Under the pieces are notes generated by a model, which searched no databases, was not told the DNA's origin, and saw only the letters and a program-made list of their open reading frames with translations. A stretch of 64,000 nucleotides of DNA, from NCBI RefSeq assembly GCF_003337735.1, contig NZ_QPJY01000001.1, positions 302,650 to 366,649 of the forward strand. The letters are read 5' to 3'. Shown piece after piece: positions 2,389 through 62,717 of this stretch. Origin of the DNA: Thioalbus denitrificans. Its GTDB lineage: Bacteria; Pseudomonadota; Gammaproteobacteria; DSM-26407. Position 1 is the stretch's first letter. The number at the start of each line of letters is the position of its first letter. Both the position numbers and the translations under genes were made by a program.

Positions 2389-4058
2389 TCCGTCCCGGCC
2401 TGTTCCTGCGCCTTATCCACATCAACCTGGTACTGATTCGCCACGGCCTGGACGAGGTGGTGCTGGCCACCCACCTGTTCCGCCCGCTGCGCTTCCTCTA
2501 CTACCTCTCGCCCTGGAACTGGCTGCGCCGCGAGCGGGCGCCGCGGGCGGTGCGCATCCGCCGCACCCTGGAGGACCTCGGCCCCATCTTCGTCAAGTTC
2601 GGCCAGATCCTCTCCACCCGCCGCGATCTCCTGCCCGACGACATCGCCATCGAGCTCAACCGGCTGCAGGACCGGGTGCCGCCGTTCCCGGGCAGCGAGG
2701 CCCGCGCCATCGTCGAGCGCGCCTACGGCCGCTCCCTCGCGGAGGTGTTCGACCACTTCGACGAGCAGCCGCTGGCCTCCGCCTCGGTGGCGCAGGTGCA
2801 CGCGGTGCGCCTCAAGGACGGCCGCGAGGCGGTGCTCAAGGTGGTGCGGCCCGGCATCCAGCGGACCATCCGCCGCGACGTGGACCTGCTCTACACCGTG
2901 GCCGAGCTGGCGGAACGCTACTGGCCCGACGGCCGCCGGCTGCGGCCGCTGGAGGTGGTGGCGGAGTTCGAGAAGACCATCTTCGACGAGCTCGACCTGC
3001 AGCGCGAGGCGGCCAACGCCTCCCTGCTGCGGCGCAACTTCATCAACTCCGGCATGGTCTACATCCCCGAGGTCTACTGGCCCTACGTGCACGCCAACGT
3101 GATGGTGATGGAGCGCATCAGCGGGGTGCCGGTGAACGACATCGAGACCCTGAAGCGCCACGGCACCAACATGAAGCGCCTGGGCGAGCTGGGGGTGGAG
3201 ATCTTCTTCACCCAGGTGTTCCGCGACAGCTTCTTCCACGCGGACATGCACCCGGGCAACATCTTCGTGGACATCAGCGATCCGGAGAACCCCCACTACA
3301 TCTCCGTGGACTTCGGCATCATGGGCAGCCTCAGCGCCGAGGACCAGCGCTACCTGGCGCTCAACCTGCTCGCCTTCTTCAACCGCGACTACCGGCGGGT
3401 GGCGGAGCTGCACGTGGAGTCGGGCTGGGTTCCCTACGGCACCCGGGTGGAGGAGTTCGAGGCGGCCATCCGCACCGTCTGCGAACCCATCTTCGAGCGC
3501 CCCCTCAAGGACATCTCCTTCGGCCACTTCCTGCTGCGGCTGTTCCAGACCGCGCGGCGCTTCAACATGGAGGTGCAGCCGCAGCTGGTGCTGCTGCAGA
3601 AGACGCTGCTCAACATCGAGGGCCTGGGGCGGATGCTCTACCCGGAGCTGGATCTCTGGACCACCGCCAAGCCCTACATGGAGCGCTGGCTGAGCGAGCA
3701 GGTGGGCCCGCGGGCGCTGGTCCGGAACCTCCGCGCCAGCCTGCCGCTGCTGGCCGAGCGGCTGCCGGAGATGCCGGCCATGATCTACGACATCGCCCGA
3801 TCGGTGCGGGAGCGCGAGCGCCAGGGCGGCAGCGACCAGCAGTGGCGGCTGCTGCGGCGGGAGATCCGGCGCGCCAACCGGCGCAGCTTCCTGGCGCTCA
3901 CCGGCGCGGCGCTGGTGGTCAGCGCCGCGGTGCTGCTGGGGCTGGACGGCTACGGCCAGATGATGCTCGGCCGGGCGCCGGTCACCACCTGGATCCTCGC
4001 GGCGCTGGGCGGCGCCATGCTGATGGCCGCCTGGCCCCGGAACAGCGACGGCGACTGA
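2385..4058 (+). CDS. ubiB: UbiB, ABC1/ADCK-type atypical kinase of ubiquinone synthesis
   Basis: A 557-residue member of the ABC1/UbiB kinase-like family required for ubiquinone synthesis, thought to use ATPase activity to help extract quinone intermediates from the membrane. The family KxGQ motif appears as KFGQ at residues 71-74, the ASVAQVH loop follows, and the catalytic-loop motif [10 protein letters not shown] and metal-binding SVDFGIMG are intact. Two hydrophobic C-terminal segments (about 500-520 and 530-545) anchor it to the inner membrane. It is the last gene of the ubiE-ubiJ-ubiB set. Confidence 0.97.
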
Positions 4059-34373: not shown

Positions 34374-35195
34374 ATGCTGACCTATCCCGACATCGATCCC
34401 GTCGCCATCAGCCTCGGCCCGCTCCAGGTGCACTGGTACGGCCTCATGTACGTGGTGGGCTTCGTGGCCGCCTGGTGGCTGGGGGCGCGCCGGGCGCGGC
34501 GCCCCGGCAGCGGCTGGACCCCCGACGACGTGGGCGATCTCATCTTCTACGGCGCGCTGGGGGTGATCCTCGGCGGGCGCATCGGCTACACCCTGTTCTA
34601 CGGGCTGGACGCCTTCCTCGCCGATCCCCTGCGCATCCTCCGGCTGTGGGAGGGGGGCATGTCCTTCCACGGCGGCCTGCTGGGCGTGCTCGCGGCCATG
34701 GCCTGGTTCGCCCGCCGCACCGGGCGGCGCTTCTTCACCGTCACCGACTTCATCGCCCCGCTGGTGCCCATCGGGCTCGGCGCCGGGCGGCTCGGCAACT
34801 TCATCAACGGCGAGCTCTGGGGCCGGGTCACCGACTCCCCCGTCGGCATGGTCTTCCCCACCGGCGGCCCCCTGCCGCGCCACCCCTCGCAGCTCTACGA
34901 GGCCTTCCTCGAGGGGCTGGTGCTGTTCGCGGTGCTGTGGTGGTTCTCGGCCCGGCCGCGCCCGCGCATGGCCGTCTCCGCCCTGTTCCTGCTCGGCTAC
35001 GGCACCTTCCGCTTCAGCGTGGAGTTCCTGCGCGAGCCCGACGCCCACCTCGGCTTCGTGGCCCTGGGGTGGATGAGCATGGGCCAGCTGCTCTCCGTGC
35101 CCCTGGTCCTGTTCGGAATCCTGTTGATGATTCTCGCCTACCGCGGCGGCAGGCGCGGCGCCGCCCAGACCCCGGAGGAGAAGCGGGCCCCATGA
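34374..35195 (+). CDS. lgt: Lgt, prolipoprotein diacylglyceryl transferase
   Basis: A 273-residue inner-membrane enzyme that adds diacylglycerol to the lipobox cysteine of lipoproteins. Conserved stretches: [26 protein letters not shown], the signature [15 protein letters not shown], and [17 protein letters not shown]. The ATG at 34374 is preferred over one at 34356. Its stop overlaps thyA by 4 bases (ATGA). Confidence 0.97.
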
Positions 35196-35986
35196 GACAG
35201 TACCTCGACCTGATGCGCCGGGTGCGCGAGCACGGCGCGCGCAAGGAGGACCGGACCGGCACCGGCACCCTGAGCGTCTTCGGCCACCAGATGCGCTTCG
35301 ACCTCGCCGAGGGCTTCCCGGTGGTCACCACCAAGAAGCTCCACCTGCGGAGCATCATCCACGAGCTGCTCTGGTTCCTGCGCGGCGACACCAACATCCG
35401 CTACCTCCACGACAACGGCGTCAGCATCTGGGACGAGTGGGCCGACGAAAATGGCGACCTCGGCCCCGTCTACGGCTACCAGTGGCGCTCCTGGCCCACC
35501 CCCGACGGCGGCCACATCGACCAGGTGAGCCAGGTGGTGGAGCAGATCCGGACCAGCCCCGACTCCCGCCGCATCATCGTCAGCGCCTGGAACGTGGGCG
35601 AGATCGGGCGCATGGCCCTGCCGCCCTGCCACCTCCTGTTCCAGTTCTACGTCGCCGATGGGCGGCTCTCCTGCCAGCTCTACCAGCGCAGCGCCGACAT
35701 CTTCCTCGGCGTGCCCTTCAACATCGCCTCCTACAGCCTGCTCACCCTCATGATGGCCCAGGTTACCGGGCTCCAGCCCGGCGAGTTCATCTGGACCGGC
35801 GGCGACTGCCACCTCTACCTCAACCACCTGGAGCAGACCGACCTCCAGCTCTCCCGCACGCCCCACCCCCTGCCCGCCATGCGCCTCAACCCGGCGGTCG
35901 ACGACCTGTTCGCGTTCAAGTTCGAGGACTTCGAGCTGACCGGCTACGAGCACCATCCCCACATCAAGGCGCCGGTGGCGGTCTGA
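35192..35986 (+). CDS. thyA: ThyA, thymidylate synthase
   Basis: A 264-residue enzyme making dTMP from dUMP with methylene-tetrahydrofolate. The catalytic cysteine is C146 in [12 protein letters not shown]; the start [20 protein letters not shown] and the [17 protein letters not shown] and [11 protein letters not shown] end are standard. Length equals E. coli ThyA. It is translationally coupled to lgt. A decayed copy of its central part lies at 42565-42670, on the far side of the accessory island. Confidence 0.98.
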
Positions 35987-36059
35987 TTCAGTCGCCGGTA
36001 GCCGGTTTCCGGTAGCCAGTCGCTGCGGCGCGCCCGGGAGGGCGGGGGCCGCTTTCGCC

Positions 36060-36087
36060 TTGCGGATGGGCGGTTCCTGTCTATAGT
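36060..36087 (+). promoter_or_regulatory. Candidate promoter at the left edge of the accessory island
   Basis: TTGCGG (36060-36065) and TATAGT (36082-36087) are separated by 16 bases. The block from CGCCTTGCGG to TCTATAGTTCAA is repeated with changes at 42771-42806. It would read into the cassette-like genes that follow, although the first one starts 330 bases away. Confidence 0.5.
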
Positions 36088-36092
36088 TCAAG

Positions 36093-36394
36093 GAGTTGCA
36101 GGAATGCCGGGCGGGCAGGGGGTTTGGCAGGGAGGCTGCAGGGATGGTGCGGGTGCTGACGTTCACTTCCGGGTTTGACGCGGTGCGGTTGGCGCCGCTG
36201 TTGGTGGTTCTTTCTCCCTCCCTGGTTCGTTTCAGCCTTGGTGCTGGCGTTGTGCTGTGCGCTGTATCTCGTTCCAGTACGGTGTGGTGTTTGTGGGTGG
36301 TGGTCTCTTTGGGTTTGGGGGTTGCGGTGTGGGGGCGGGTTTTATGTGGCGAAAGTGACGTATTTAAATGCGTCATTTGCGCAGTCTAAATGTA
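36093..36394. other. G/T-rich spacer without a recognisable gene
   Basis: About 300 bases with a marked G+T bias on the + strand. Short open frames exist, but their products are low-complexity Trp/Cys/Gly-rich strings without a ribosome site. An imperfect inverted repeat lies at about 36350-36382 (GTGACG against CGTCA). The segment is where an integron attI or leader would be expected, but I cannot assign one. Confidence 0.4.
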
Positions 36395-36401
36395 GTTAGC
36401 C
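36395..36401 (+). other. Possible attC/attI core site (GTTAGCC)
   Basis: GTTAGCC preceded by TGTA just before the first small gene resembles the R' box GTTRRRY and the end of the site at 38453 (TGTAGTTAGG). No matching R'' box is seen within the expected distance. Confidence 0.3.
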
Positions 36402-36418
36402 TTTCAGAGGAGTATTAC

Positions 36419-36769
36419 ATGTACACAGGAAGTCTTTGGCTTGATTTTGAAAGCGAGGACGAGGAGGCGCACTACGTAGCGAATGTGTCGCGATGCATCA
36501 TCCGTGACAATGAACTAATTCTTGAGTTCTCAGGAAGCGACGAAGGTCATCATTTTATTGGTAATTGCACGCTCTCAAAAAGTGGTGCTGGCTACTCTGG
36601 CAAAGGCAGCTTTGAATACGCCGGAAACAGCGAAGTCTCTTCAAGTGTTGCAGTGTCGATTGAAGAAAGTGGATCTGAAATATTGCTTCATGGTACGTGG
36701 AGAGATGAAGGAGAGACGGTGCCATACGAACTTGAGGCAGAACTTAGCAAGAGTAAAAGGGGTCGGTGA
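36419..36769 (+). CDS. Unknown 116-residue cassette-type protein
   Basis: I do not recognise this protein. It is acidic and probably beta-rich (MYTGSLWLDFESEDEEAHY, HHFIGNCTLSKSGAGYSGKG, then EILLHGTWRDEGETVPYELE), with no signal peptide or membrane helix. CAGAGGAG lies well placed before the ATG at 36419. Its last four codons (KRGR) and its stop codon are supplied by the palindromic element that begins at 36756, so the original C-terminus may have been replaced. Base composition is clearly AT-richer than in thyA. Confidence 0.7.
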   Translation: MYTGSLWLDFESEDEEAHYVANVSRCIIRDNELILEFSGSDEGHHFIGNCTLSKSGAGYSGKGSFEYAGNSEVSSSVAVSIEESGSEILLHGTWRDEGETVPYELEAELSKSKRGR

Positions 36770-36812
36770 CAACTGGTAATTATAAAGATTCTCATTTGTC
36801 ACCGACCCCTTT
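36756..36812. repeat. Palindromic element E1
   Basis: A ~50-base element with 14-base terminal inverted repeats (GGGGTCGGTGACAA at 36759 and TTGTCACCGACCCC at 36796) and an AT-rich centre. It is present in inverted orientation at 39946-40000 (E2) and in decayed form at about 40994-41035 (E3) and 43720-43775 (E4). Size and symmetry suit a small non-autonomous mobile element or REP-type palindrome. Confidence 0.8.
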
Positions 36813-37066
36813 CGACCTATTGTGAGCGGAAGCGGCTTTCTGCTCAAAAGGCGGGCTACGTTCATGAGTCCGAACACTGGTTGCTGGTGTATGACAATTG
36901 GTCGGTTCCTGCGTTGAACGCCGAACGCGGCGCTGTGTTGACTCATGACGCACTGCTCGGGAACGGATCGCTGGCTTCCTTTGATCGCGTTTATGTCATC
37001 AACGAGTGCACGCTTTGGAAATTTAACGTGGCCGGGTGGGGGGTTTGTCCAGCGAGTGAGTTGTAG
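36813..37066 (+). pseudogene. 5'-truncated unknown gene
   Basis: A reading frame without its own start runs from the right end of element E1 to a stop at 37064. The product (STYCERKRLSAQKAGYVHES, later VPALNAERGAVLTHDALLG and TLWKFNVAGWGV) looks like the C-terminal part of a larger protein that I do not recognise. A TTG at 36881 could initiate a 61-residue piece. The stop lies 10 bases before the R'' box of the attC-like site at 37076, as in a gene cassette. Insertion of E1 or a deletion probably removed the 5' part. Confidence 0.5.
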
Positions 37067-37075
37067 GGCGGCGAA

Positions 37076-37165
37076 GCTAACAAAAAGCTTCACCCGACGC
37101 CGGGTAAGCAGCCGTGCCCTGCTCATGCGTCCGGAAGCCGGCGCGGGTGAGCTTTAACGTTAGAT
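37076..37165 (+). other. attC-like recombination site 1
   Basis: A ~90-base imperfect palindrome between two unrelated genes. The left end GCTAACAAAAAGCTTCACCC is complementary in blocks to the right end GGGTGAGCTTTAACGTTAGA: CTAAC/GTTAG are the R boxes and AAGCTTCACCCG/CGGGTGAGCTT the L region. This is the architecture of integron attC sites. Confidence 0.75.
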
Positions 37166-37178
37166 TTCGGAGAAAGAA

Positions 37179-37508
37179 ATGGCATTACCGAATTACAAGG
37201 ACATAGTCGAACTCCTGAAGAAAGGAGCAACGATTGAGGCTCAAGAAAAGATCATGGAGCTTAGAGAGGCCGCCCTTGAGCTTCAAGAAGAGAACATTAA
37301 CTTGAAGAATCAAGTGATCGAGCTTCAGGGGAAAGTTCGAAAGCTTGAATCTTTCGAAGGCGAACCATGCCCAAAATGCAGGAAGCCGGCTTGGGTGGTC
37401 GAGTCGAGCAAGCCCGATCCGCAGTTTGGAGACCTGGGTGGCATTCGTCGAGAATATCGCTGCACTGAATGTGGCTTCACGGAATCTCAGTTAGTAACGC
37501 CAAAATGA
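37179..37508 (+). CDS. Coiled-coil zinc-ribbon protein in a gene cassette
   Basis: A 109-residue protein with an N-terminal coiled coil (about residues 18-60; EELL- and LEL-type heptads such as LREAALELQEENINLKNQV) and a C-terminal zinc ribbon with two CxxC pairs (EPCPKCRK near 66 and YRCTECGF near 97). Function unknown; it could bind nucleic acid or another protein. The start at 37179 follows GGAGAAAG. The gene is exactly enclosed by attC-like sites 14 bases upstream and 2 bases downstream, making it the clearest cassette of the array. Confidence 0.78.
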   Translation: MALPNYKDIVELLKKGATIEAQEKIMELREAALELQEENINLKNQVIELQGKVRKLESFEGEPCPKCRKPAWVVESSKPDPQFGDLGGIRREYRCTECGFTESQLVTPK

Positions 37509-37510
37509 AA

Positions 37511-37578
37511 TCTAACACGTCGATCCAGCCGATGTCAGGCCGCAATGCGGCCTTCCTCGGCTGAGCTAGGCGTTAGGG
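37511..37578 (+). other. attC-like recombination site 2
   Basis: A 68-base palindrome. R'' is TCTAACA and R' is GCGTTAGG. The inner arms CAGCCGA (37528) and TCGGCTG (37557) pair, as does the apical AGGCCGCAATGCGGCCT hairpin. This is the most typical attC of the window. Confidence 0.8.
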
Positions 37579-37592
37579 CGCAGATACAAACT

Positions 37593-38396
37593 ATGTCCAC
37601 CGAAGATTATCTGGCAGAAACGCTTCAGCGGCTTGAGCACTTCTATGCTCAGATGGATAAGTCCACGGGAAATCTGTTTTTTCGGAATGTTGGCCCCTAT
37701 ATGCAGTTTCGGCATGAAACCCTGACAGAATCCCTAGCCTGCTACTTGAAGGGCATTAAGACCATCTCGACGCTCAATGCCTGCATAGTCTTACTTCGTC
37801 ATGGTTATGCGCAAGAAGTCGGTGCGCTCTGCCGCATGGCCGATGACTTTTGTAACGAGATTTTCTTCTTGCTACAGCCACAAGGAGAGAACGGCAACTT
37901 TAGCAATGACCAAGTCCGCTTCCTCGAGAATTTTTACCAAGAAGAATTCGATAAACCCGCAGACCCGCTCAGGTCTACCCAAAAGCGAGAAACTGTAGCT
38001 GTAAAAAGGATTCATGCAACGTTTGGTAAATTGGCGGCAGGAGAACTAAACCCTTCAGATGCGCAGGAACTATTGCGTACCACTCATCAGGCATTTTCCG
38101 GCTATGTACACGGCGCATATCCCCACATAATGGAAATGTGTGGAGGCAATCCGCCGCGTTACCATGTGTCGGGGATGCTCCACACGCCGCGAATTGAGGA
38201 ATGGAGAGGCCAGCTCATTGGCTATGTTCAGCGCCTTATCATTGCATCGGTTTTTGTTGCACGTAAGCTCGGAGTAACCGACCTCGAAGCGCCTTTACGA
38301 TCGTTGCTCGAAGAATTCGAGAAGGCCACAGGAACAGAACCGGTGCTTAAGGCAAGTGACCTGCTCGCGAAATACAAGAAGAAACATGCGCCCTAA
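37593..38396 (+). CDS. Unknown 267-residue helical protein in a gene cassette
   Basis: Mostly helical, soluble, no signal peptide. The segment LNACIVLLRHGYAQEVGALC with RMADDFCNEIFFLLQ recalls DUF5677/HEPN-like proteins, but I cannot assign it firmly. The C-terminus is charged (LLAKYKKKHAP). The ATG at 37593 lies just after attC-like site 2; an in-frame upstream ATG falls inside that site and is rejected. Its stop codon TAA is part of the CCTAAC R'' box of the next site, typical of cassettes. Confidence 0.7.
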   Translation: MSTEDYLAETLQRLEHFYAQMDKSTGNLFFRNVGPYMQFRHETLTESLACYLKGIKTISTLNACIVLLRHGYAQEVGALCRMADDFCNEIFFLLQPQGENGNFSNDQVRFLENFYQEEFDKPADPLRSTQKRETVAVKRIHATFGKLAAGELNPSDAQELLRTTHQAFSGYVHGAYPHIMEMCGGNPPRYHVSGMLHTPRIEEWRGQLIGYVQRLIIASVFVARKLGVTDLEAPLRSLLEEFEKATGTEPVLKASDLLAKYKKKHAP

Positions 38397-38459
38397 CAAA
38401 CGCGAGCTGGAACAACGGGGTCGGACCAGCGTAACCGTGTAGCAGATATGTAGTTAGGA
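38392..38459 (+). other. attC-like recombination site 3
   Basis: CCTAAC (38392) and GTTAGG (38453) bound this 68-base site, and GAGCTGG/CCAGCGT pair inside. The segment from GGAACAACGGGG to AGCGTAACC also occurs twice in tandem at 39997-40074, so part of the site is shared with another repeat. Confidence 0.6.
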
Positions 38460-38466
38460 CAACAAG

Positions 38467-39339
38467 ATGACCAGAAAAAACGAAACAAAGGAGCAAAAAT
38501 ACGTGTCTACTGACGAAAAGATTGCGCTAAGGAATAGCTGGCTAAAGGTTGGGGTTATTGGTTCGGCTACAGCTGTACTTGTAGTAAAAATTTGGCAAGC
38601 AGATTTTACTCAAGCTTTCTCAGGCTTCGACTTTTCCGATTTATTGTCATTGTTTCTTGCTATTTTCTCTATTAGTTTGGCTGTTCTTTTCTACTTAAAG
38701 GCAACGGATACATCCAATGTCTTCTACGATAATACCTATCGATTTACGAAGGATGTTTCTGAAATACTAGGAAGAGTTGAAGCGGGTTTTGGGGAACGTT
38801 TGCGGCATCTTGATGAGGGATACACTGGGTTAAAGAGTGCTGTTGAAAAGCTTCCTTTTGATAGAGCAAAAGCTGAGGAGGAGATAAAGGAAGAAGAGGA
38901 ACAGCTACAAAAAGTGGAGCAAGAGAGGGTTGAGCTTATCGAAAGCCTTGCGAAACGTGCTCAACTGCAGGAAGAGGAAAAGCGTTCATTATTCACCCGC
39001 CTTGAAGAACAAGATAAAGAATTAAGTAGCGCTAGAAGAGAGTTGCACTTTCTGCGGCGACGCCTCCATGCAGCAGAAGTTGTTGATGAAGATCTGGTAA
39101 GGCGAATCCCCTCTCATGTTAGGCACATGCTAAACAAAGCAGTCGGGTTAAAGGTGCTGGACGAAATATCTCACGGCGCACCAATGAGAATTATAAATAG
39201 GCGATTCAATGCATTGCGCGATGAACTGCCAACCCGGTTCATTGAAGAGCTAAGGGAGTTTGGGATTGTTGATTCGGATGGAGAACTCACTCGAATTGGA
39301 TTCGAATTACTTAAAAGCATTAACAGTGAAAGGTCCTAG
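38467..39339 (+). CDS. Membrane coiled-coil protein with possible winged-helix end, in a gene cassette
   Basis: A 290-residue protein. Two membrane helices lie at about residues 26-45 (VGVIGSATAVLVVKIW) and 58-78 (LLSLFLAIFSISLAVLFYL). A long coiled coil follows (about 100-210; EEEIKEEEEQLQKVEQERVE, REELHFLRRR-type repeats). The last ~75 residues (LKVLDEISHGAPMRIINRRF, LREFGIVDSDGELTRIGFEL) resemble a small winged-helix domain. Function unknown. The gene starts 8 bases after attC-like site 3. Codon use is AT-rich. Confidence 0.72.
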   Translation: MTRKNETKEQKYVSTDEKIALRNSWLKVGVIGSATAVLVVKIWQADFTQAFSGFDFSDLLSLFLAIFSISLAVLFYLKATDTSNVFYDNTYRFTKDVSEILGRVEAGFGERLRHLDEGYTGLKSAVEKLPFDRAKAEEEIKEEEEQLQKVEQERVELIESLAKRAQLQEEEKRSLFTRLEEQDKELSSARRELHFLRRRLHAAEVVDEDLVRRIPSHVRHMLNKAVGLKVLDEISHGAPMRIINRRFNALRDELPTRFIEELREFGIVDSDGELTRIGFELLKSINSERS

Positions 39340-39353
39340 CAATCACAGGTGCT

Positions 39354-39402
39354 CTGGCAGTAAAAAGCGCCGCTTCTCCATCGCTCTGCTTTGTACTGCC
39401 AG
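39354..39402. other. Palindrome after the coiled-coil gene, possible decayed attC
   Basis: CTGGCAGTA-AAAAGC is mirrored by GCTTTG-TACTGCCAG. It has the size and place of an attC site, but clear R boxes are missing. Confidence 0.4.
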
Positions 39403-39452
39403 CGAAGTGTAGCGGTAGAGTTCATCGGATTAACGCTCTAAAAGGGATGCGT

Positions 39453-39851
39453 ATGACGATATTTACGTTTTCGGCCGATGGTGGATGGCAGACAATAGAA
39501 GACTTTCTTGCGGTTCCTGATGTGTCAGATTGTGCTGAAGAAAGAGCCCTGGCCGGTTTTTCAAAGTATCCAGCGCTCTCTGTTGGCGATACGGAGGGTG
39601 GTGCTTTCTGTGTTGAGATTTATGGCCGGGAATTCGGTGCGGCATCTAGAAAGCAGTCGCAATATGAATATTTGGTAGCTGTAGATGTCGGTGACTCCGG
39701 AGAATTTATCGCAATTCCTTCGCTTCCCGACCTCCTGGAGTTCATGCGCTTGACGATTCCTTTATGCGTTACCATTGATGACTGGCGAATCCGACACGAG
39801 AAATATATGGCGGAAATCGAGGAAAAATTGAACTCAGGGCGTCAGAAGTGA
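39453..39851 (+). CDS. Unknown 132-residue cassette-type protein
   Basis: A small acidic soluble protein I do not recognise (MTIFTFSADGGWQTIEDFLA, GGAFCVEIYGREFGAASRKQ, FIAIPSLPDLLEFMRLTIP). The pattern of a compact alpha/beta protein resembles many immunity or cassette proteins, without a firm family match. Two ATGs are possible: 39447 and 39453; AAGGGA is well spaced only for the second. About 10 bases after the stop, CCCTAACC resembles an R'' box, but no complete site follows before element E2. Confidence 0.65.
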   Translation: MTIFTFSADGGWQTIEDFLAVPDVSDCAEERALAGFSKYPALSVGDTEGGAFCVEIYGREFGAASRKQSQYEYLVAVDVGDSGEFIAIPSLPDLLEFMRLTIPLCVTIDDWRIRHEKYMAEIEEKLNSGRQK

Positions 39852-39945
39852 AAATATAATCGAGCCCTAACCCCTCGTTCTGACCATTACACACAGGTCA
39901 TGGCGTAAAATCACGGCTCCCAGGGCGAATAGATCAACGCAAGCA

Positions 39946-40000
39946 AAAAGGGGTCGGTGACAAATGAGAATCTTTATAATTACCAGTTGTCACCGACACC
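39946..40000. repeat. Palindromic element E2 (inverted copy of E1)
   Basis: This is nearly the exact reverse complement of E1, with the same AT-rich centre. The right terminal repeat reads TTGTCACCGACACC, one base off. It merges into the following 39-base tandem repeat. Confidence 0.8.
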
Positions 40001-40074
40001 TGAACAACGGGGTCGGACCAGCGTAACCGACTAAGCACCTGAACAACGGGGTCGGACCAGCGTAACCGACTAAG
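39997..40074. repeat. Two perfect 39-base tandem repeats
   Basis: Unit 39997-40035 is repeated at 40036-40074. The core (GAACAACGGGGTCGGACCAG plus CGTAACC) is also found inside the attC-like site at 38411 and in changed form at 42381. The second unit joins directly to repeat R1. Confidence 0.9.
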
Positions 40075-40081
40075 TATTCAA

Positions 40082-40208
40082 GAAAAATCGGAAATATGTG
40101 GCCATATTCTGCGCTTGCAAGCCACATTTACGCGTCATAAACGATGAATGTTGCGTGGAGTGCCGACACCGCCGCTTCCTGCGCGGAGGCGCCAGCATCC
40201 GGCAACTC
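40082..40208 (-). pseudogene. Repeat R1, left copy: gene remnant on the minus strand
   Basis: About 125 bases closely related to 42428-42550, in direct orientation. In both copies the minus strand reads LPDAGASAQEA, SALHATFIV and MWLASAEYG with mostly conservative changes, which suggests a formerly coding sequence. This copy has an in-frame stop after FIVYDA. I do not recognise the protein. Confidence 0.5.
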
Positions 40209-40232
40209 CACAGCGCAGCGGGCGGGGTCAGG

Positions 40233-40254
40233 TCTAACATTCCAACAGTTAGGA
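40233..40254. other. Collapsed attC-like site
   Basis: TCTAACA and GTTAGGA lie only 10 bases apart. They look like R'' and R' boxes of an attC site whose centre has been lost. A gene follows 45 bases later. Confidence 0.3.
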
Positions 40255-40298
40255 CGGGATGACAAGTTAATAAACTGTAGCCGGCTTTAAAAAATTGC

Positions 40299-40604
40299 AT
40301 GCACAACTTACAAAGGAATGTGTTTTTCGTGATGGTATTAGCTGGCGGCAGTGCTTCGACCTACGATCTGGAACACAATTTAAATTCCCTGGTGGGCAGC
40401 AAGCTGAAACCCGCAGAAGCACAAGAAATGAAAGTGGTTCAGCGAGTGGACGGGAAACCATCGCTCTATGAGTTTAATTCCAGAAATGGCCAGTGCACTG
40501 TTCTGGTCGCCATCAACCCGCGCACACAGGTTATAGAGGGTTGGCGCTATCAAAGCGGGTCGAAGCGTTGCCGGAAAACCCGCGAGTATGGCCATGCCTG
40601 GTAG
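40299..40604 (+). CDS. Unknown 101-residue protein, possibly exported
   Basis: The start MHNLQRNVFFVMVLAGGSAS is hydrophobic and could be a weak signal peptide. The rest (NSLVGSKLKPAEAQEMKVVQ, NGQCTVLVAINPRTQVIEGW) has two cysteines and looks like a small periplasmic domain. Not recognised. The ATG at 40299 lacks a good ribosome site; AAAGGA lies further inside at 40311, so the true start is uncertain. Confidence 0.55.
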   Translation: MHNLQRNVFFVMVLAGGSASTYDLEHNLNSLVGSKLKPAEAQEMKVVQRVDGKPSLYEFNSRNGQCTVLVAINPRTQVIEGWRYQSGSKRCRKTREYGHAW

Positions 40605-40704
40605 CAAAACGGCGCGGGTTGCGGGCGCGGTGCGCAAGTAACACAGGGGCCGGCCACGGTTTTCCTATGCGGCATCTGGCCCACGAACACAATCACGGGG
40701 CGTC

Positions 40705-41004
40705 ATGCAAATGAATAGTACCAGACCAGCTCCCAATGAGGTACGGCCGATAGTCCGGGTGCTCGCAGTCATCCTTGCGATTTGCTGCTGGGGTGTCGCA
40801 TTGATGATTGCGTACTCATTTGCACTTTCTGGTAGTGTCGCTGAAGGTTCAATCAAGGTTTTGGCCAGCGCCGTGCTTTTCGGTTCAGTATCAAGCTTTG
40901 TTGTCGTAAAAGGTTTTGTCCCGCCCTGGCTCATGCGCCTTATCCCGTTCGTCGGCTCGGCCACGGCCGGTCAGGAGTTGAGGAAAAATAAATGGAATCG
41001 GTGA
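40705..41004 (+). CDS. Small two-helix membrane protein
   Basis: A 99-residue protein with two or three hydrophobic stretches (VLAVILAICCWGVALMIAYS near 19-38; IKVLASAVLFGSVSSFVVVK near 50-69). Not recognised. Its C-terminal residues KWNR and stop codon come from the left end of the decayed element E3, just as E1 supplies the end of the gene at 36419. Confidence 0.55.
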   Translation: MQMNSTRPAPNEVRPIVRVLAVILAICCWGVALMIAYSFALSGSVAEGSIKVLASAVLFGSVSSFVVVKGFVPPWLMRLIPFVGSATAGQELRKNKWNR

Positions 41005-41035
41005 CAGCTGGTTATTGTAAAGATTGTCATCTGTT
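40994..41035. repeat. Decayed palindromic element E3
   Basis: The left part and centre of E1 are recognisable (AATCGGTGACAGCTGGTTAT, then TGTAAAGATTGTCAT), while the right terminal repeat is lost. Confidence 0.65.
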
Positions 41036-41080
41036 TTCAATCTCTTCTGGCTCAGTACGACTGAAATCGACTTAAGCTTT

Positions 41081-41545
41081 ATGAAAAATATCGTCATCAC
41101 GATATGCTATTTGCTGTTGTTCGGTTGTGGCCCAACTAGATACAGCTATGATTGCACTGTGCCATCTTTTGTGATTCAGTCGCCGCACATAATAAATGAG
41201 TCATTCCCAACGGATGACTACTTGAAGAGCAGTTGCAAGATCAAGACCGCTAAAAATTATACAATCTTAACGAAAACAAATGGTGTTGTTGTTGATGTCC
41301 GTCAGGAGGCGTTTAGGCCAACGCTTTACATGAGTCCGCGATCAGATACGGGAAAAAGGATTGTCATAACGGGCCAGGATATTTACGAAACGGCGCCGAT
41401 GCATTCATATGCGATTGATATTGAGTTGTCTTCAAAGCGAAGCATCTCTTTTGATGTTCGTGATTCAGAGAACAACCATATCGATACAATTGCGCTTGCA
41501 TATACGCCAGTTGTCTGCGAATGCGTGGGATATGATGCACCATAA
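41081..41545 (+). CDS. Small lipoprotein of unknown function
   Basis: A 154-residue protein with a lipoprotein signal (MKNIVITICYLLLFGCGPTR; lipobox LFGC, Cys16), followed by a beta-rich domain with several cysteines (YDCTVP, SSCKIK, CECVGYDAP). Not recognised. The ATG at 41081 begins the signal; an in-frame upstream ATG at 41024 would overlap element E3 and is rejected. Strongly AT-rich compared with the core genome. Confidence 0.7.
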   Translation: MKNIVITICYLLLFGCGPTRYSYDCTVPSFVIQSPHIINESFPTDDYLKSSCKIKTAKNYTILTKTNGVVVDVRQEAFRPTLYMSPRSDTGKRIVITGQDIYETAPMHSYAIDIELSSKRSISFDVRDSENNHIDTIALAYTPVVCECVGYDAP

Positions 41546-41551
41546 AGGGCT

Positions 41552-41608
41552 GACGCTGCCTTTCAGCGGACGCAGGAGCCGTTGCGGCTCCGGTGCTGAA
41601 AGCGTTCG
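41552..41608. repeat. Large imperfect palindrome after the lipoprotein gene
   Basis: CTTTCAGC (41560) pairs with GCTGAAAG (41595), and GGAGCCG (41575) with CGGCTCC (41585). It could be a divergent attC site or a transcription terminator without T-run. Confidence 0.55.
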
Positions 41609-41647
41609 CTGGCCGCCCGATAAAGTGCTGTGATTTGAGGGGATGGC

Positions 41648-42367
41648 ATGTCACCGAGTACGGATGAACCAAAGGTGGATCAGGCAGCATCCCCTCGCCA
41701 GTGGATCAGACTGGTTGCTGTTTATCTGTTCATACCCCTGGTTCTCCTGGTGTGCGGAGGGGATTTCGGTTGGTGCCAGGCGTGGGTCTATTCCCTGCTG
41801 ATTGTCGCCGCCGGCCCGGGGGGGCGCCTTTGGGCGGAACGGCGGCATCCGGGGTTGATGGCCGAGCGGCAGAACATGGAGAAGGTCCAAAGAGCGAAGG
41901 CATGGGACAGGGTGCTAGCGCCGTTGATGGCGCTGAGTGTGAGTTTCCCCCCGGTCATCGTGGCCGGGCTGGATCATCGCTTTGACTGGTCACCCGAATT
42001 TCCGTTGTGGCTCATGGTGCTCGGCTTCCTCTTGATCGCGCTAGGATACGCTTTCGCTGCGTGGGCATTGATAGAGAACCGCTTTTTCTCCAGCGTGGTG
42101 CGTATTCAGGTGGAACGGGGGCATGTGGTTTGCGACAGCGGCCCCTATCGGATAGTTCGACACCCGGGCTACGCCGGAAACATGTTGGCGCTCCCGGGTA
42201 TGGCGCTGGCCTTGAACTCGTTGTGGACACTTGTTCCGGCGGCGGTGGCGCTGGTCATCGCGGTGATCAGAACGGCGCTGGAGGACCGGACTCTACAGGA
42301 CGAGTTACCGGGCTATCGCGACTATGCGCGACGCGTGCGCTATCGGTTGATTCCCGGGATTTACTGA
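41648..42367 (+). CDS. Isoprenylcysteine carboxyl methyltransferase-like membrane protein
   Basis: A 239-residue polytopic protein of the ICMT/PEMT superfamily. Hydrophobic helices occur at about 22-40, 45-60, 92-110, 120-140 and 195-212. The SAM-binding signature GPYRIVRHPGYAGNML and the ELPGYRDYARRVRYRLIPGIY end are typical of bacterial ICMT-like methyltransferases, whose substrates are mostly unknown. Base composition is closer to the core genome than the genes before it. It is the last gene before the right flank of the island. Confidence 0.82.
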   Translation: MSPSTDEPKVDQAASPRQWIRLVAVYLFIPLVLLVCGGDFGWCQAWVYSLLIVAAGPGGRLWAERRHPGLMAERQNMEKVQRAKAWDRVLAPLMALSVSFPPVIVAGLDHRFDWSPEFPLWLMVLGFLLIALGYAFAAWALIENRFFSSVVRIQVERGHVVCDSGPYRIVRHPGYAGNMLALPGMALALNSLWTLVPAAVALVIAVIRTALEDRTLQDELPGYRDYARRVRYRLIPGIY

Positions 42368-42380
42368 AGGGACTCATCTG

Positions 42381-42550
42381 CTGCGAACAGCGGGGCCGGA
42401 TCGGCGTTATCGACCATGTAGGCTAGAAAAACCGGAAATAGCTGGCCATATTCTGCGCTTGCAAGCCACATTTGCACGTCATGAACGATGAATGTTGCGT
42501 GGAGTGCCGACCGCACCGCTTCCTGCGCGGAGGCGCCAGCATCCGGCAAC
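42381..42550 (-). pseudogene. Repeat R1, right copy, with upstream extension
   Basis: This is the direct-repeat partner of 40037-40208. On the minus strand it reads VLPDAGASAQEAVRSALHAT then FIVHDVQMWLASAEYGQLF without a stop, and the open frame continues through the antisense of the thyA fragment to 42669. That longer frame is a chimera of two remnants, so I treat the segment as a decayed gene. Confidence 0.45.
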
Positions 42551-42564
42551 ACCATGACAACGCT

Positions 42565-42670
42565 GTCAGCGCCTGGAACCAGAGCGAAATAGAGCCCATG
42601 GCTCTGCCGTCCGGACACCTCCTGTTCCGGTCCCGCATCGCCGGGGGGCGGCTCTCCCGCCACTTCCACC
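42565..42670 (+). pseudogene. Decayed thyA fragment
   Basis: About 106 bases align without gaps to thyA positions 35579-35684, roughly three quarters identical by eye. The translation SAWNQSEIEPMALPSGHLLF matches Thy[21 protein letters not shown], but the catalytic cysteine is replaced by glycine. Nothing before or after continues the match. With intact thyA on the left, it brackets the island. Confidence 0.75.
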
Positions 42671-42773
42671 TCTCCCCTCCGAAGCGGGACGACCTCCGGC
42701 TCTGCCGCTAAACCTGCCCCCTTCCCGCAGTGCGCCGCAACGCCCGGTTGCGGGCGCGATGGCCGCGCCCGCC

Positions 42774-42801
42774 TTGCGGTTGGGTTGCTTGTGTCTATAG
42801 T
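42774..42801 (+). promoter_or_regulatory. Candidate promoter at the right edge of the island
   Basis: TTGCGG (42774-42779), 16 bases, TATAGT (42796-42801). It is the second copy of the promoter at 36060-36087 and lies about 155 bases before the isomerase-like gene. The stretch 42802-42955 shows no gene. Confidence 0.55.
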
Positions 42802-42955
42802 TCAACAGGTTGGGTCAAGCCGTACTGCCGCGTCCGCGGCGGGGTGGCTGCAAGGGTCGGCAGGGTTCGGTGACAGGTGCGACTCGGCACCCAGACCTGC
42901 GGCCCGCTTTCCCGACCCCGCAGCCGGGGCAGTTGTGCCGATGGAGGACAATAAC

Positions 42956-43830: not shown

Positions 43831-44679
43831 ATGGCTGGCAACTGGTCAGTGGCAGAGGTTGAAGCGGCTGTTGAGGATTACTTCGACATGCTTCGGCGCG
43901 AGCTGACGGGTCGCCGGTTCAACAAGGCGGCGCATCGGCGTGCACTCCGGGAGCGTCTGAACAACCGGTCCGATGGATCAGTGGAGTTGAAGCACCAGAA
44001 TATCAGCGCCGTGCTGATCGAGATGGGTATTCCCTATATCGATGGCTACAAGCCCCGATTCAATTACCAGCGTTCGCTGTTGCCGGCGGTGGTTGCGGAA
44101 TACCTGAAGCACAATCCGGAGATTCAGGCGCTGTTCCTGGCCGACTCGGAGATGACGCCCGCAATCCCGTCTGTGGAGGACTTTCTGGCGGCGCGGGAGG
44201 CGCCGCCGGCCCGGGATGTTCGAAGCCCCACTATGGTTGCGGAGGGCTCAGTCATCTACAACCCCATCGGCATGAACTACCTGGAGATCGAGGCGCGGAA
44301 TCAGTTGCTCGGCGGCGCCGGCGAGCAGTTCGTGATCAATTTCGAGCGCGCCCGTCTCATTCATGCGGGACAGGAGGCGCTTGCCGATCGAATCGAGCAG
44401 GTATCCGTGACAGTGGGGCCGTCGGCCGGGTTCGATATCCACTCATTCGAAGTGAATGGATCCGATCGGTTCATCGAGGCCAAGACCACGAAGTACGGTA
44501 AGAGCACGCCGTTCTTCATCACGCCCAGTGAACTCCGATTTTCCCGCGATAACGCATCCCGGTATTTTCTGTACCGGATCTTCAGGTTCCGCACCGATCC
44601 GCGCCTGTTCGCATTGCATGGCCACCTGGAGGGACAGTGCAAGCTGGAGCCGTCACAGTACATGGCGTGGCCTGCATGA
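43831..44679 (+). CDS. DUF3883 restriction-nuclease-like protein
   Basis: A 282-residue protein. The N-terminal half (VAEVEAAVEDYFDMLRRELT, VELKHQNISAVLIEMG) is helical. The C-terminal half is a DUF3883 domain: GGAGEQFVINFERARLIHAG, then SAGFDIHSFEVNGSDRFIEA with KTTKYGKSTPFFITPSEL. The D...ExK arrangement (D in GFDI, E and K in IEAKTT) is that of PD-(D/E)xK nucleases. DUF3883 occurs in many restriction or defence proteins. It is solitary here, without a methylase. Confidence 0.75.
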   Translation: MAGNWSVAEVEAAVEDYFDMLRRELTGRRFNKAAHRRALRERLNNRSDGSVELKHQNISAVLIEMGIPYIDGYKPRFNYQRSLLPAVVAEYLKHNPEIQALFLADSEMTPAIPSVEDFLAAREAPPARDVRSPTMVAEGSVIYNPIGMNYLEIEARNQLLGGAGEQFVINFERARLIHAGQEALADRIEQVSVTVGPSAGFDIHSFEVNGSDRFIEAKTTKYGKSTPFFITPSELRFSRDNASRYFLYRIFRFRTDPRLFALHGHLEGQCKLEPSQYMAWPA

Positions 44680-62210: not shown

Positions 62211-62717
62211 ATGCTGATCTCCCTCATCGTCGCCATGGCCGAGGACCGCGCCATCGGCATCGAGAACCGCCTGCCCTGGCACCTGCCCGCGGATCTGCGC
62301 CACTTCCGCGACACCACCATGGGCAGCCCCCTGATCATGGGGCGCCTCACCCACGAGTCCATCGGCCGGCCGCTGCCCGGGCGGCGCAACATCATCGTCA
62401 GCCGCGACCCGGACTACCGCGCCGAGGGCTGCGAGGTGGTGGGGTCTGTGGAGGCCGCGCTGGCCGCGGCGGCGGGGGCCGGGGAGGTGTTCGTGATGGG
62501 GGGTGCGAGCCTCTACGCCCAGCTCCTGCCCCGCTGCGACCGGCTCTACCTGACCCTGGTGGAGGGCAGCTTCACGGCCGACGCCTACTTCCCCGGGATC
62601 GATCCGGGCGCGTGGCGCGAGATCGCCCGCGAGGATCACGCCCCCGACGCCGACAATCCCCATCCCTACAGCTTCCGGGTGCTGGAGCGGGTCGGGGCTT
62701 CGGACAGGAAGGAATAG
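62211..62717 (+). CDS. folA: FolA, dihydrofolate reductase
   Basis: A 168-residue NADPH-dependent reductase of dihydrofolate. MLISLIVAMAEDRAIGIENR, LPWHLPADLRHFRDTTMGSP, IMGRLTHESIGRPLPGRRNI and VFVMGGASLYAQLLP are all standard. The stop codon lies at the edge of a repeat of the ACAGGATT type. Confidence 0.96.
   Translation: MLISLIVAMAEDRAIGIENRLPWHLPADLRHFRDTTMGSPLIMGRLTHESIGRPLPGRRNIIVSRDPDYRAEGCEVVGSVEAALAAAAGAGEVFVMGGASLYAQLLPRCDRLYLTLVEGSFTADAYFPGIDPGAWREIAREDHAPDADNPHPYSFRVLERVGASDRKE

Follow-up and report, generated by a model that had tools for sequence, protein, structure and literature searches.

A probable CALIN, an integron cassette array without an integrase, between thyA and a decayed partial thyA duplicate in Thioalbus denitrificans

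Integron integrases recombine the folded bottom strand of attC sites, and Loot et al. reportedly described in 2024 the insertion of cassettes at attG sites (as cited in PMC12901181). Cassette arrays that have no integrase beside them are known as CALINs, which IntegronFinder 2.0 defines by at least two attC sites; on average they hold almost six, and the authors proposed them to be degraded integrons (PMC9024848). In Xanthomonas, CALINs have been described together with inactivated integron integrase genes (intI) (PMC12444791).

The window considered here is a 64,000-nucleotide stretch of the 4.14-Mb genome of Thioalbus denitrificans (G000, 21 contigs; contig C1, positions 302650-366649), and coordinates given without a contig name refer to it. 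The block at 36395-42370, flanked on the left by thyA and on the right by a decayed copy of part of that gene, is very probably a CALIN: a short set of integron cassettes in the chromosome with no integrase beside it. It falls under the published definition, since our own covariance model finds two significant attC sites in it (37075-37165 and 37510-37578), separated by about 345 bp, and no intI lies nearby. Contig C1 holds no match to the integron integrase profile TIGR02249. The cassette genes appear exchangeable, with one bounded by attC sites in another genome (G141) and a different cassette present in the sister species. An intact intI beside the array, as in a complete integron, was not found, the sole intI-like gene being a defective one on contig C4. 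The best reading of the array is that of an immobile, degrading CALIN. Counting against a CALIN are the presence of only two strong sites and the half of the block without a recognisable attC.

An initial annotation, made from the sequence alone, had proposed an integrase-less array next to thyA with a composition richer in AT than its surroundings. The proposal is upheld by two attC sites above threshold and no nearby intI, and needs correction in three respects: one of the three named sites is not intact, the array is decaying, and duplicated pieces of thyA lie within it and next to it. The GC content is 50.1% in the block and 70.1% in the remainder of the window, and no integrase profile matched the block's proteins, as had also been claimed. 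The annotation had overlooked the palindromic repeats, the pieces derived from thyA and two decayed attC sites (39334-39420 and 41548-41614). The array is a well-supported case of a kind already known; what is unusual are the broken copies of part of thyA around it.

attC sites

Since a search of Rfam gave no attC match, a covariance model was built from 36 sites of other integrons, namely 35 from class relatives and one from a plasmid class 1 integron; the model is home-made rather than IntegronFinder's, and the window's own sites were left out of it. The covariance search, one of the checks that the initial annotation had proposed, returned two matches above threshold, and the third-best window match reached 13 bits. 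Across the 64 kb, a simple pattern search for R'' and R' boxes whose inner arms are complementary likewise gave two convincing sites. When the model was run without filters, scores of about 8 to 10 bits were obtained for 40232-40254, 41548-41614, 39334-39420 and 38391-38459. Applied to 1.43 Mb surrounding thyA in 80 other genomes, the model gave no match at E up to 1; because these 80 loci yielded none, the gene was discarded as a general hotspot for attC. The sites are listed below.

37075-37165, + strand: attC 1, intact; 49.0 bits, E 6e-10 over 93 kb; fold z -3.6; R'' AGCTAAC, R' GTTAGAT
37510-37578, + strand: attC 2, intact; 33.6 bits, E 4e-6; fold z -4.4; R'' ATCTAAC, R' GTTAGGG
38391-38459, + strand: attC 3, damaged; R boxes intact (R'' CCCTAAC, R' GTTAGGA), L boxes lost; 8.0 bits, E about 1
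39334-39420, + strand: attC 4, most likely a decayed site; R'' TCCTAGC, R' GGTAGAG; 10.0 bits
41548-41614, + strand: attC 5, decayed; L boxes still able to pair, mutations in the R boxes; 10.2 bits

When folded as single strands, the bottom strands of attC 1 and attC 2 form attC-like hairpins that beat nearly all shuffles; attC 5 (z -2.2) and attC 4 are intermediate, and attC 3 (z 0.01) does not rise above shuffles. The initial annotation had described paired R and L boxes at three sites. Scan and model both bear this out at 37075 and 37510 and not at 38392, where L'' and L' show no complementarity and both the bit score and the fold z are low. A 28-nt repeat occupies the expected L-box position of attC 3. 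An alignment of DNA with G141, running from the start codon of the gene at 38467 to R'', supports the R' of attC 3 (38453-38459) as a real cassette start within an otherwise scrambled site; on the same alignment, 39334-39420 is most likely a real attC with mutated core bases, the R'' region reading CCCTAACAA (intact) in G141 and TCCTAGCAA here. For attC 5, 33 of 33 columns align to the sister species at 94% identity, and R'' (GCTAAC) is intact there.

Copies of a repeat of 28-39 nt (GAACAACGGGGTCGGACCAGCGTAACCG) lie at 38410-38437, inside attC 3, and in tandem at 40002-40029 and 40041-40068, ahead of the first copy of a sequence X described below. A diverged copy at 42380-42418 precedes the second.

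Cassette genes and the sister-species locus

The genes of the block, all on one strand, are as follows.

36419-36769, + strand: orphan gene, 116 aa, open reading frame without a family; 3' end enters a palindromic repeat (36758)
36813-37066, + strand: 3' remnant of a cassette gene, open frame to TAG 37064-37066; start truncated by the repeat
37179-37508, + strand: cassette gene, 109 aa, open reading frame; coiled coil and CxxC zinc-ribbon-like motifs
37593-38396, + strand: cassette gene, 267 aa; rare conserved family with weak DUF5677 similarity
38467-39339, + strand: cassette gene, 290 aa; two membrane helices predicted at the N terminus, and a coiled coil
39447-39851, + strand: orphan gene, 134 aa, probably a cassette gene; no homologue in 274 genomes or plasmids
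40299-40604, + strand: 101-aa gene, lipoprotein-like in the sister species and partly common to it
40705-41004, + strand: orphan gene, 99 aa, membrane-protein-like open reading frame without a family
41081-41545, + strand: putative lipoprotein gene, 154 aa, probably a cassette gene; stop 2 bases before the attC-like 41548
41648-42367, + strand: isoprenylcysteine methyltransferase-like gene (PEMT/ICMT); PF04191 E 4e-12, PF04140 E 1e-9

The arrangement initially described, small genes that share a strand and whose stops fall 0-10 bases from the next R'' box, agrees with stops that end at 37066, 37508, 38396 and 39339. The remnant at 36813-37066 ends 8 bases ahead of the R'' of attC 1, and the TAA stop of the gene at 37593-38396 overlaps the R'' of attC 3. 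No evidence points to cassette status for the block's outer genes (36419-36769, 40705-41004 and 41648-42367).

In family profile searches most of the block's genes are orphans, and defence-system profiles gave only weak matches of a coiled-coil type. The product of 37179-37508 has sub-threshold zinc-ribbon matches and weak homologues in 2 of 274 genomes; for the 267-aa protein, no attC was found adjoining its closer homologues. The gene at 38467-39339 is a proven cassette elsewhere: its homologue in G141 (76%) is flanked by attC sites of 30.7 and 48.2 bits. A remoter homologue in G268 (36%) has a weak attC-like match of 14 bits downstream, and beside the Photobacterium homologue no attC is visible to the covariance model. 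By recurring between attC sites in a distant genome, this gene is marked as a mobile one, and the array adds several unstudied cassette proteins. Structure models of two of the cassette proteins (mean pLDDT 60 and 65) were too poor for inference, and the single fold search returned no significant match.

Among the relatives available, one belongs to the same genus (the sister species, G001), and all others share the class only. The orthologous locus lies on G001 contig C186. Its homology with the window extends over 40041-40483 (95%), the first (5') half of attC 5 and, from 42602 onwards, the right flank (85%). The thyA remnant of G001 holds another cassette, which consists of an HNH endonuclease gene and an attC scoring 41 bits. 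A search of G001 for the genes at 37179, 37593, 38467 and 39447 found none of them; the absence of these middle cassettes is not proven, because the contig ends at X and the genome is 87% complete. The comparison for cassette gain and loss that the initial annotation had suggested thus yields differing content at the locus, from one relative within these bounds. Together, the array and its orthologous locus show how a cassette cluster persists and decays once the integrase is gone. On the minus strand of the sister contig, at about 8120-7020 of our locus L120, the thyA remnant is broken up by the HNH cassette together with an IS-like remnant and a palindromic repeat, and about 17 bp of thyA sequence is repeated on either side of the interruption.

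Integrase remnant, palindromic repeats and thyA pieces

A look-up of intI elsewhere in the genome, also proposed initially, found the sole intI-like gene on another contig, in a defective state. TIGR02249 matches occur on contigs C2, C4, C6 and C10, none above cut-off, and the best of them, the C4 gene, has model positions 1-115 fused in frame to 236-313. Alignment to five intact IntI proteins shows that about 120 internal residues are missing, the first catalytic Arg among them, and that His replaces the catalytic Tyr (TTRIHTHVL versus TTMIYTHVL or similar in the others); both catalytic residues have established roles in tyrosine recombinases. Four attC sites lie between the defective intI and the end of contig C4, and further sites occur at C3:814, C3:265113 and on C8 and C16, several of them at contig ends. 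The genome formerly had a working integron, as the defective intI and the scattered attC loci indicate, and now has scattered cassettes. Since the only intI-like gene found is defective, the array could not be reshuffled from within, and we infer that it is immobile at present; this census is bounded by the 21-contig assembly, in which several attC loci lie at contig ends and an intact intI could sit in a gap.

LexA is the SOS repressor and controls intI in other bacteria; a gene for a LexA-like product lies about 0.5 kb from the defective intI (1987-2640 and 3136-3858 of locus L017 on C4). At the end of contig C8, a Tn5/IS4-type transposase gene stands among the attC sites (6519-7889 of L209).

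The thyA gene, the repeats and the thyA-derived pieces around the array are the following.

35192-35986, + strand: thyA, intact thymidylate synthase gene, left neighbour; PF00303 E 1e-127
36756-36812, no strand: palindromic repeat, REPIN/MITE-like, with GGGGTCGGTGACAA ends; truncates the start of a cassette gene
39947-40001, no strand: second palindromic repeat, in the opposite orientation to the first; 98% complementary to 36758-36812
40041-40210, no strand: repeat X and thyA fragment (thyA 35375-35410), copy 1; region 95% identical in the sister species
42385-42554, no strand: repeat X and thyA fragment, copy 2; 88% identical to copy 1
42513-42812, + strand: decayed copy of the thyA 3' part and of its spacer, following X copy 2

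One cassette is cut into by the GGGGTCGGTGACAA palindromic repeats, and others are adjoined by them. Exact copies of this family number 19 in G000 and 6 in G001, and attC loci account for many of them, though not for all. Its places include 36756, 39947 and 43721 in the window and loci L207, L208, L230-L235, L120 and L211, and a Y1-type transposase gene (L231:5682-6371) is likewise flanked by the motif. A preference of the repeats for attC sites was considered and dropped, copies being present also at loci without attC; these copies and the flanking of the Y1-type transposase gene make them look like ordinary repeats, probably of a REPIN-type family.

Sequence X, about 130 bp long, is joined to a thyA fragment in both of its copies (40041 and 42385). 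Sought across the class, it was found only in G000 and G001, at thyA, and its interpretation as a widespread element was rejected. The stretch at 42513-42812 matches thyA 35368-35437, 35579-35684, 35808-35890 and 36031-36098 at 72-79%. Cassette insertion alone does not account for these duplicate pieces. A folA-like frame follows thyA directly or within about 1 kb at 37 of the 80 other thyA loci; here folA lies at 62211-62714, 26 kb from thyA. The 19 kb between the array and folA is mostly of normal GC, so the array alone did not cause the separation of the two genes. At 43831-44679, close to the array on its right, a stretch of about 60% GC holds a gene whose product has a NOV_C domain (PF13020).

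Origin of the array and comparison with known systems

Under the CALIN reading, an integron integrase would have inserted the cassettes by acting on folded attC hairpins. Entry could have been through a secondary (attG-like) chromosomal site, or the array could descend from an ancestral integron that later lost intI and attI. It would then have grown from the thyA side and decayed, with erosion now proceeding through mutation of attC core bases and insertion of palindromic repeats. Intact attC sites near thyA, decayed ones farther out and a distal part shared with the sister species fit such growth followed by decay; the mode of the first cassette's entry and the thyA side as its direction are what this layout suggests. 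It is conceivable, if improbable, that the 3' end of thyA in this genus is a repeated cassette entry point outside any integron, with the partial thyA copies as a by-product; each successive insertion or duplication might then, by the same long shot, have left one X|thyA fragment. Given sequences from more strains, the duplicated thyA pieces would make the entry of stray cassettes into the chromosome testable at one place.

The flanks of the array could have another source. A larger mobile element may have entered thyA through recombination, either site-specific or homologous. It would have supplied a replacement 3' end along with the cassettes, which only travelled on it, and would have displaced the old 3' part of thyA rightward. 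Such an event is rather unlikely. It draws on the decayed 3' part and spacer that lie right of the array and join the right flank directly, and on the X|thyA junction, which is present twice as two nested insertions would leave it. Yet searches of open reading frames and profiles found no recombinase, relaxase or transposase gene between the thyA copies, and X was not found outside the two sister genomes. The element would explain the flanks and not the attC sites, and it is compatible with a CALIN.

The attC sites themselves bear on two further possibilities. That they belong to a complete, active integron, split by the assembly or situated elsewhere so that the array is still mobile in trans, is improbable: several attC loci do reach contig ends and two sites here look intact, but the array sits inside a 958-kb contig with chromosomal genes flanking both sides, and the sole match to intI is plainly a broken gene. 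That no integron is involved, and that the hairpins arose by chance in an AT-rich island of the genome, is barely credible. The third site named initially scores near chance and most of the genes are orphans, but the two strong attC matches stand on a clean background (1.43 Mb from 80 genomes) and the cassette ends match those of an attC-bounded cassette in another genome, which contradicts an origin by chance.

In returning to the CALIN, insertion at attG sites as in Loot et al. 2024 would explain how cassettes come to lie next to an ordinary gene where there is no attI; the likeness lies in the position of the cassettes, with no attG site identified here. The array shares with the Xanthomonas case an inactivated intI in the genome and CALINs at chromosomal places away from it, and differs in the neighbouring gene (thyA here; lamG, secD/secF and others there), in the bacterial order and in being compared with one relative (PMC12444791). 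It resembles the CALINs of IntegronFinder 2.0 in having two or more attC sites, in the small cassette genes that share a strand and in lacking an intI next to it, whereas it is below their average size and has decayed attC sites, palindromic repeats and thyA pieces interspersed (PMC9024848).
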